DNA of 34,264 bases from Desulfobulbaceae bacterium. Lineage in GTDB: Bacteria; Desulfobacterota; Desulfobulbia; Desulfobulbales; Desulfocapsaceae. Below the pieces are notes generated by a model. The model ran no database searches. It saw nothing but the letters and a program-made list of their open reading frames with translations, and had not been told where the DNA came from. This document shows, piece after piece, positions 1,130-5,432 of this stretch. The position numbers and the translations under genes are program-made. The first letter of the stretch is position 1. Each line of letters begins with the position of its first letter. The DNA is taken from the NCBI GenBank assembly GCA_004796425.1, contig QZLB01000161.1, positions 1-34,264 on the forward strand, in the 5' to 3' direction.

Positions 1130-1765
1130 CTATCGAAGCATTTTTGATTCGGGGTTCATTTTTAACCAACGGTCCCACCTGGTATCAGACGATTTCATTT
1201 CGGGCAAAAACTTCCCAAGATACGGCCCGGTGATCGCCCGCAGTCCATTGCGTTCCGGATACCAGAGACTCATAGTTTTCTTATCGTAGAGGACAAAGGT
1301 ATTTTTATAGGTCCACCCTGAAGGAGCAAGGGTGAGCGTCTTACCATCGAGTGTGCGACTGTACACAGCCGCCAGATCGACCAACGGTCAGTAACCGACG
1401 GCAATGGGTTGCTGATCAAGGGTCGTGTTGGCAATTTCATGGCGAACCAGCCGACCAACCTCATAGGCATGGGCTTCATTCTCTGTGCTGGTCCCGATTA
1501 CTCTGCTACCACCCGGACGTGATTGCTCCTTGTTTTGAATCAGGTCTTGATCATTGAGTGGGGTAAAGGCGTTTTTACCAATCCCATACTGAAAACGCTC
1601 AGGTCGAAAACCACGAGCGACAGCAGCGGTCACATCCCACCGTTCTCCTGTTCGATCGATAAGAAACACATGCTCACCCTCTCTGATAACCTTCGAGGTG
1701 GCGCTATCATCCCAGCCCAGGAGAAAAATCACAGACAACAGGATAATCATAGATAGAACTTTCAT
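1130..1765 (-). CDS. DUF3179 family protein, candidate selenoprotein with in-frame UGA at 1388-1390
   Basis: The frame starts at ATG 1763-1765 (ribosome site GGGAGG 5-6 nt upstream) and ends at TAG 1130-1132. It would encode 211 residues if UGA at codon 126 is read as selenocysteine. Residues 1-20 form a signal peptide or membrane anchor. The family pattern is clear on both sides of the UGA: 'VIGTSTENEAHAYEVGRLV', 'RHEIANTTLDQQPIAVGY' before it, and 'PLVDLAAVYSRTLDGKTL', 'APSGWTYKN', 'LYDKKTMSLWYP' after it. Typical DUF3179 proteins read VTYCPLC here, so the UGA replaces the first Cys; the second Cys position is Val. No other Cys exists in the protein. A SECIS-like hairpin follows at once. 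Function of the family is not established; export and a redox-type residue suggest an extracytoplasmic redox role (inference). The alternative is a nonsense mutation or sequencing error. Confidence 0.75.
1346..1381 (-). promoter_or_regulatory. Candidate bacterial SECIS element
   Basis: On the minus strand, directly after the UGA at 1390-1388, a hairpin can be drawn. The upper stem is GCGGCTG/CAGTCGC (1372-1366 with 1361-1355; 7 bp, one G-U pair) around a UGUA loop (1365-1362). A lower stem pairs TCGA 1380-1377 with TCGA 1350-1347 across a 4x4 internal loop. The loop starts 22 nt after the UGA and has G as its second base. As I recall the published bacterial SECIS model (apical loop of 3-14 nt with a G in the first two positions, 16-37 nt after UGA), all these requirements are met. 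Confidence 0.6.
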
Positions 1766-1851
1766 ATACACCTCCCATCCCCGGTTTTTTGCTTTTTCCA
1801 GGTTCAGAAATGGTTTCCAGGTGATTTGGTTTCTCTATCTATGAAGATGGA

Positions 1852-4664: not shown

Positions 4665-5432
4665 ATGCTAATTATCACCTCACCTTCAAAAACGCAGCAA
4701 CTGAACCTGCTTGAGCAACAATTGGCCACTCAACCGCGGCTGGTGAAACAGGCCGGGCAGTTAATTGACATCCTCCGCACATTCAAACCTGAGCAACTGG
4801 CATCGTTGATGAAAACCAGTGAGCGATTAACTGCAACCACCCTCAATGCCATCAGCTCGTTTTCCCTGGAGCATACGACTGAAAACAGTGGAAGTGCACT
4901 GGCGACTTTTCGTGGCGATGTTTTTTCATCCATCCAAGTTGATCATTATCAAGCCGACCAGCTCAGTTATGCCCAAAAACACGTGAGGATATTATCCGGA
5001 CTCTATGGAGTCTTGCGACCGCTGGATCTGATCCAACCTTATCGACTTGAGATGGGTTTGCGCCTTGAGACGGACTCGGGTCAGTCCCTCTATGACTTTT
5101 GGGGATCGCAAATTACCGAAACACTTAATGAAGATTTGGAATCATTAGCTGATCCTGTCCTGATTGATTGCGCCTCAGCGGAATACAAAAAGTCGATCCT
5201 TGATCAGCAATTGAATGCGTCAATTGTTAAGGTTCATTTTCGACAGATAAAAAACGGTACCGTGAAAACCATTGCGATCCATGCCAAAAAGGCACGAGGG
5301 ATGTTGATCGACTATTGTATCCGGAACCAAATCACTACCCTCAGCGGTTTGCGTACGTTTGCTGAGAGTAATTATGAACTTTCACCTGAATCAGATGATC
5401 AGAACGTGATATTTACCTGCCAACTTGAGTAA
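4665..5432 (+). CDS. yaaA: Peroxide stress protein YaaA (DUF328)
   Basis: The 255-residue protein matches the YaaA family over its full length: the start 'MLIITSPSKTQ', the central 'HVRILSGLYGVLRPLDLIQPYRLEMG', and the later 'SLYDFWGSQIT', 'LIDCASAEYKKS' and 'KKARGMLIDYCI' blocks. In Escherichia coli the protein limits intracellular free iron during peroxide stress and binds DNA. Length is normal (about 255). The ATG is the first residue of the conserved start, though the ribosome site is weak. An anaerobe would use it on oxygen exposure, which fits the nearby OsmC gene (inference). Confidence 0.93.
   Translation: MLIITSPSKTQQLNLLEQQLATQPRLVKQAGQLIDILRTFKPEQLASLMKTSERLTATTLNAISSFSLEHTTENSGSALATFRGDVFSSIQVDHYQADQLSYAQKHVRILSGLYGVLRPLDLIQPYRLEMGLRLETDSGQSLYDFWGSQITETLNEDLESLADPVLIDCASAEYKKSILDQQLNASIVKVHFRQIKNGTVKTIAIHAKKARGMLIDYCIRNQITTLSGLRTFAESNYELSPESDDQNVIFTCQLE

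Follow-up and report, generated by a model that had tools for sequence, protein, structure and literature searches.

A DUF3179-family gene was found on the minus strand of the window, that is, of the whole 34,264-nt stretch of DNA analysed here. The ATG at 1765 was followed by 125 codons, a TGA at 1390-1388, a further 85 codons and a TAG stop (Table 1). The single in-frame TGA at 1388-1390, the frame and the TAG stop were found as described in an earlier sequence-only reading of the locus. Its count of 85 codons after the TGA was reproduced as well, whereas 126 codons had been counted before the TGA and 125 were found from the ATG.

Table 1. Features of the DUF3179 locus and their positions in the window.
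Feature	Position	Strand	Basis
Short DUF3179 gene, predicted to encode a 211-residue selenoprotein by Sec decoding of the UGA; ATG 1765-1763, stop TAG 1132-1130	1130..1765	-	translation; Pfam PF11376 match, E 2.6e-29; relatives
In-frame UGA, predicted Sec, residue 126	1388..1390	-	TGA at this codon in 34/34 distinct short-form copies
Shine-Dalgarno-like GGGAGGT upstream of the ATG	1770..1776	-	direct reading of the sequence
Candidate SECIS element of bacterial type, -15.5 kcal/mol	1346..1381	-	published constraints; synonymous constraint; helix count
Upper hairpin of the candidate SECIS: stem of 7 bp including one G-U pair, loop UGUA, spacing of 22 nt from the UGA	1355..1372	-	
Hydrophobic segment at the N-terminus, probably serving as a signal peptide or membrane anchor	1691..1765	-	hydropathy 3.03; model helix 2-18
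His109-Glu110, conserved without exception at -17 and -16 from the Sec/Cys	1436..1441	-	71/71 copies

The PF11376 domain was found to span residues 84-210 of the encoded protein on both sides of the TGA, with an E value of 2.6e-29 and a score of 103 bits against a curated cut-off of 27, which bears out the family-like sequence noted earlier past the TGA. Unlike the long DUF3179 relatives, which covered model positions 1-292 or nearly so in the PF11376 search, the window protein was matched over positions 23-147 only and failed to match over most of the 292-position model. The short-form relatives shared 46-65% identity with it over the best segment. The 211-residue translation contained no Cys, as had been noted, and Sec126 would be its sole chalcogen residue apart from Met.

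The window was found to contain 38 stretches, including the DUF3179 gene, in which a TGA is preceded by at least 50 and followed by at least 40 open codons, and 32 of the 38 overlapped another ORF of at least 150 codons. The remaining six were the DUF3179 gene, two frames antisense to it and three others; one of the six ran into the plus-strand ORF at 4665-5432, and two were junctions of neighbouring genes in which the first gene ended in TGA. The openness of the frame around a TGA, taken alone, is thus a weak proof of Sec.

The UGA codon among DUF3179 relatives

Relatives were collected by overlapping searches of 58 genomes of relatives, 93 of the family, 257 of the class and 395 of the phylum, together with a PF11376 search of the phylum. 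One further scan of a genome-contig collection yielded 27 short-form relatives; its peptide patterns lay outside the Sec codon, and these 27 copies were therefore not selected for TGA. Among the matches listed without a locus in the phylum searches, only L108 was read. The duplicates L039, L040, L057, L067, L071 and L066, 20 long loci fetched twice and the contig fragments L080 and L085 were dropped before counting, and the copies compared were 34 distinct short-form copies and 37 distinct longer DUF3179 copies alignable at the site. The long copy L075, described below, was counted among the long TGA copies in the site count, the tree, the SECIS test and the His-Glu count.

The TGA was found at the Sec codon in 34/34 distinct short copies, and no short copy with a Cys at this place was found. 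The same codon of the 37 long copies was occupied by TGA in 23 and by Cys in 14. Both lines of evidence that the sequence-only reading had named as support, a UGA at this codon in other genomes and a Cys in relatives, were thus present. Residue +3 of the short copies was found to be V in 25, Q in five (one as UPSQ), A in three and I in one. The long TGA copies contained UPLT (nine), UPLA (nine), UPLS (four) or UPLC (one), followed by the long Cys copies with CPLC (seven), CTLC (five) or CPLT (two). The UGA had been placed at the first Cys of a YCPLC motif, whereas the closest relatives form the short TGA clade with UPLV, UPLQ, UPLA, UPLI or UPSQ. In the aligned set, a Cys at +3 was present in 12 of the 14 Cys copies and in 1 of the 57 TGA copies. 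Nine further long loci of one genus were found with PF11376 and failed the alignment filter; eight of these were read as C-P-x-T and the ninth was left unread. The idea that a Cys at +3 always accompanies a Cys at the site was weakened by these eight loci.

The short copies were found on one side of a single branch with a support of 100/100 in a 69-row tree, in which the two trait columns were masked and 32 short copies were included; L019 and L045 were excluded from the tree and from the codon-entropy test. One change was sufficient to explain the Sec and Cys labels on the tree, the Cys side being weakly supported (20/79), and gain and loss of Sec are not distinguishable because the tree is unrooted. 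According to the record titles, the short form was present in Desulfobacterales, Desulfobacteraceae, Desulfobulbaceae, other deltaproteobacterial bins and Nitrospirota. For 10 chosen pairs, with the SECIS codons excluded, pN after the TGA was 0.05-0.25 against a pS of 0.19-0.97, and dS was saturated in seven of the pairs. This pattern indicates purifying selection on the protein downstream of the TGA in these pairs.

The short copy L019 of genome G013 was found to lack the N-terminal part, and its last residues run on in another frame. Decay of this copy through loss of the Sec machinery was considered and dropped, because tRNA-Sec was present in G013, although SelA was not found there. In L045, near 6465, the short-copy frame ends 33 codons past the Sec codon through a frameshift or a sequencing error. 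In nine short genes (L046, L048, L050, L051, L059, L061, L065, L069 and L070) the apparent true stop was itself a TGA, 86 codons past the Sec TGA, so that both meanings of TGA would occur within one gene.

The hairpin after the UGA and the selenocysteine machinery

The bacterial SECIS model, as given in PMC13188914, requires a loop of 3-9 nt, a stem of 4-16 bp, a G in the first two loop positions, a spacing of 16-37 nt and an MFE of -7.5 or lower. The window hairpin was found to agree with this model through its UGUA loop, 7 bp, spacing of 22 and energy of -15.5. With L019 excluded, the model was passed by 32 of 33 short copies, L046 being the one that failed. Among the long copies, it was passed by 15 of the 23 with TGA and by 2 of the 14 with Cys. 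The UGUA loop at a spacing of 22 was conserved in 28 of the 32 passing short copies. In L026, L027 and L069, two synonymous changes were found jointly, GCC and TAT in place of GCT and TAC, and the loop opens to 8 nt with the G still second.

The codons GCG GCT GTG TAC AGC CGC, which encode AAVYSR, were found to be near-invariant downstream of the UGA despite the many synonymous spellings available. The synonymous choice was almost frozen at codons +6 to +11, whereas the same amino acids varied elsewhere; Val +8 was GTG in 32/32 copies, and Val +32 was found with all four Val codons (9, 9, 8 and 6). The entropy test compared 48 conserved codon columns in 32 copies with the same amino acid across the region, and the mean shift was -1.27 bits for the seven columns +5 to +11 against -0.17 for the 41 others; a value this low was not reached in 100,000 random draws. 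The seven-pair hairpin was paired in 94.5% of cells over 34 copies, and changes on both sides were found in one of the seven pairs (three cells). The alignment fold contained five pairs with a covariation term near nil (-0.04). The support for the hairpin is thus constraint more than compensation, because one pair was doubly changed and the covariation gain was almost zero. The free 61-nt fold of the window region was unremarkable in stability against shuffles (z -0.73), and no Rfam family was found within the window at its threshold.

The genome was found to contain tRNA-Sec (73.8 bits, also called as tRNA-SeC by ARAGORN), SelB (363.9 bits), SelA (615 bits) and SelD (358.9 bits), so that selA, selB, selC and selD, which had been named as genes to look for, are all present. 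The SelD gene (L097, contig C311, 2-904) contained one in-frame TGA and SelD is therefore probably itself a selenoprotein. Among the other genomes with the short form, tRNA-Sec was present in 10 of 11 and SelA in 8 of 11; neither was detected in G598, which is 82% complete. SelA was searched in 38 of the 52 other genomes with family, class or phylum matches and was found in 32 of the 38, Cys-form genomes among them, and the machinery therefore does not separate the carriers of TGA from those of Cys here. The long copy L075 (G447, contig C192, near 1120, on a 6.5-kb contig) was found to contain TGA in a UPLC motif in a genome that is 100% complete, with both SelA and tRNA-Sec undetected. The TGA of L075 is either a plain nonsense change or the 6.5-kb contig is foreign.

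The apparently broken gene is very probably an intact selenoprotein gene, in which the UGA would be decoded as Sec within a full-length protein. The conserved UGA, the constraint on the RNA, the machinery and the protein conserved on both sides of the UGA were computed here, and the Sec interpretation of the UGA is supported by the TGA of all short copies, the Cys of 14 of the 37 long ones and the sel genes. The hairpin just 3′ of the UGA at 1390-1388 would recruit SelB with Sec-tRNA, and Sec would then be inserted by the ribosome. A nonsense mutation or a sequencing error that split an ordinary Cys gene would likewise present a single TGA in an otherwise open frame and agree with the Cys found at the site in many long relatives, and L075 shows that a single TGA here can also have another origin, unless its contig is foreign. 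Such an origin is extremely improbable for the window gene, because the codon is TGA in 34/34 short copies and is followed by frozen synonymous codons and a conserved protein. The earlier argument that a random nonsense mutation was unlikely is upheld through the conservation of the TGA, which is the decisive evidence; the open frame alone would be weak evidence in a window with 38 such stretches. It is also very improbable that the UGA is a true stop with the two halves as separate or regulated products. A GTG-started ORF does end exactly at the UGA and is followed by a TTG-started ORF, but the TTG, the second codon after the UGA, was found in just 4 of 32 copies, the Pfam match crosses the TGA, the hairpin fits the SECIS constraints and the Sec machinery is present.

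Protein features, predicted fold and candidate role of Sec126

The window protein was found to contain a hydrophobic N-terminus with a best 12-residue mean hydropathy of 3.03, followed by the presence of a helix at 2-18 in its structure model. A hydrophobic N-terminus was found in 31/31 copies read (best 12-residue mean at least 2.06, by a simple hydropathy test and not a signal-peptide predictor), and a lipobox in 3 of the 31; L019, L062 and L063 were excluded from this reading. The short DUF3179 protein is thus probably extracytoplasmic, as judged from its sequence. The His at -17 and the Glu at -16 relative to the Sec or Cys were conserved in 71/71 copies, short and long, with TGA and with Cys. 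This invariant pair suggests a Sec-His active site.

The better structure model was that of the L060 domain, with a mean pLDDT of 81.3 and a pTM of 0.77, and was found to contain strands at 87-93 and 96-103 with the Sec at 103 and the His at 86. The window protein's own model (pLDDT 73.6) contained the same register, with residues 109 and 126. The strand ranges would place the His and the Sec face to face if the two strands form a hairpin with a turn at 94-95, and by the strand registers Sec126 would lie at the end of a predicted strand opposite the invariant His109.

The best structural match of the L060 model was 3gce (Z 7.4, rmsd 2.8, 93 aligned), followed by 3dqy (Z 6.9) and 2qpz (Z 6.8). 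The 50 matches listed for L060 are all, judged by their titles, Rieske proteins or Rieske oxygenase chains; the NirD-like 3c0d was counted as Rieske, 8gym_Qe was assumed to be so, and many of the 50 rows duplicate proteins already in the list. The first 13 of the 26 matches listed for the weaker model were likewise of Rieske type. No Foldseek match was found at E <= 0.001, profile comparison with 10 Rieske sequences gave a probability of at most 1.1%, and the search for solved relatives by sequence returned none, a ribosomal match at E 0.56 being due to chance. Of a Rieske relation, only this likeness of the predicted core to the fold stands, and the Rieske ligands are lacking.

Three parts would make up the product, namely a segment for export or anchoring at the N-terminus, a conserved N-terminal extension and roughly the first half of the DUF3179 domain. 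Sec126 would serve as a redox nucleophile, activated by His109 and Glu110, that attacks the substrate; it would operate without an internal partner Cys and be re-reduced by an outside thiol or donor. This is the most likely role, and for the redox role taken alone the balance tilts modestly in its favour. The next choice is that Sec126 binds a metal or another ligand, which we regard as possible but rather doubtful. The lack of a UxxC partner, by which a classical redox cycle of CxxC type within the protein is impossible, and the invariant His-Glu predicted across from Sec126 are in line with ligand binding, but no relative that binds a metal was found, and a second Cys or Sec is absent from the protein. 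The structural matches invite a further reading, a Rieske protein that has degenerated and has Sec in place of an iron-sulfur ligand. The ligands of the Rieske 2Fe-2S cluster are CxH and CxxH, and the CPLC of DUF3179 and the CPLH of Rieske proteins are alike by eye. This is quite improbable, with no Cys left in the protein to hold a cluster, with the Foldseek and profile results above, and with aligned ranges (ranges only, not a residue alignment) that suggest a Sec before the first cluster loop; a Z below 8 may also be merely a common arrangement. The redox reading can be extended, with marked reservation, to the whole short clade, which might be a Sec-obligate class of exported one-selenium enzymes in sulfate-reducing and nitrospirotal anaerobes, in which a Rieske-like beta scaffold carries the Sec-His pair, Cys never returns and no CxxC-type partner is used.

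Relation to known proteins and gene neighbourhood

The sequence-only reading knew of no established DUF3179 selenoprotein, which is to be corrected by the tables of two reviews (PMC9312934, PMC13188914), where DUF3179 (pfam11376) is entered as a selenoprotein with 'UxxC/T' and is credited to the Olavius symbiont study of Zhang and Gladyshev 2007, and by one plasmid record named 'DUF3179 domain-containing (seleno)protein'. A Sec-containing DUF3179 protein is therefore known as a kind. A literature search for DUF3179 and PF11376 returned no description of a short, partner-free, Sec-only clade, which the examples of the review tables may nevertheless include. The new part looks to be the separate short clade, whose proteins have a hydrophobic N-terminus and a single Sec, lack a Cys at the place of the UxxC Cys and were found in no Cys version.

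The short clade was found to share with the published 'UxxC/T' selenoproteins the same Pfam domain and a Sec at the same conserved Cys position. Unlike them, it contained V, Q, A or I at +3 in place of C or T, and its proteins have about 211 residues with part of the 292-position domain and an N-terminal extension of their own, although the table examples may be of the short form as well. The domain is homologous to that of the DUF3179 Cys proteins (CPLC, CTLC and CPLT, with CPIT, CPTT and CPVT in one genus), which also carry the His-Glu 17 residues before the Cys (14/14 aligned). The Cys proteins contained Cys at +3 in 12/14 aligned copies, with Thr at +3 in eight more outside this count, and, unlike the short clade, did not agree with the SECIS model in 12/14. 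The Rieske-fold ferredoxins (3gce, 3dqy and 2qpz) have a similar predicted beta topology; unlike them, the window protein showed no profile similarity and contained no CxH or CxxH ligands.

Selenoproteins have often been discovered by pairing Sec with Cys homologues. Nearly all selenoproteins have Cys homologues, as stated in PMC13188914. In a clade whose copies found here all carry TGA, and for which no short Cys form was found, Sec itself may be required. Such a clade is easily missed, since a standard gene call stops at the UGA. Its strongly conserved SECIS offers a clean element for testing. With this clade, the selenium biology of sediment and marine anaerobes would gain an exported Sec protein that has no partner Cys and, if the proposal is true, a new class of extracytoplasmic selenoenzymes.

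Apart from the gene itself, no protein cluster was found in more than five of 28 regions, which comprised 27 loci, many of them truncated at a contig end, plus 12 kb of the window, and the clusters in five regions sit at scattered distances from the DUF3179 gene. With no widely recurring neighbour in the 28 regions, a conserved operon was rejected as a clue to function; the close relatives L050, L051 and L065 were found to have two downstream genes in common. NCBIfam held no family for the window protein at E <= 0.01 and gave a single chance match when E was relaxed to 10; four long DUF3179 proteins likewise matched none, so that NCBIfam did not show where the '(seleno)protein' record name comes from. 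No DUF3179 relative was found on viral contigs, and 25 plasmid records contained longer relatives, none with 80% query coverage. Elsewhere in the window, an OsmC-family gene (PF02566) was found at 2217-2630 on the minus strand as an open frame carrying Cys, with a score of 51.6 bits against the NCBIfam model OsmC_like_Se, below the cut-off of 95.
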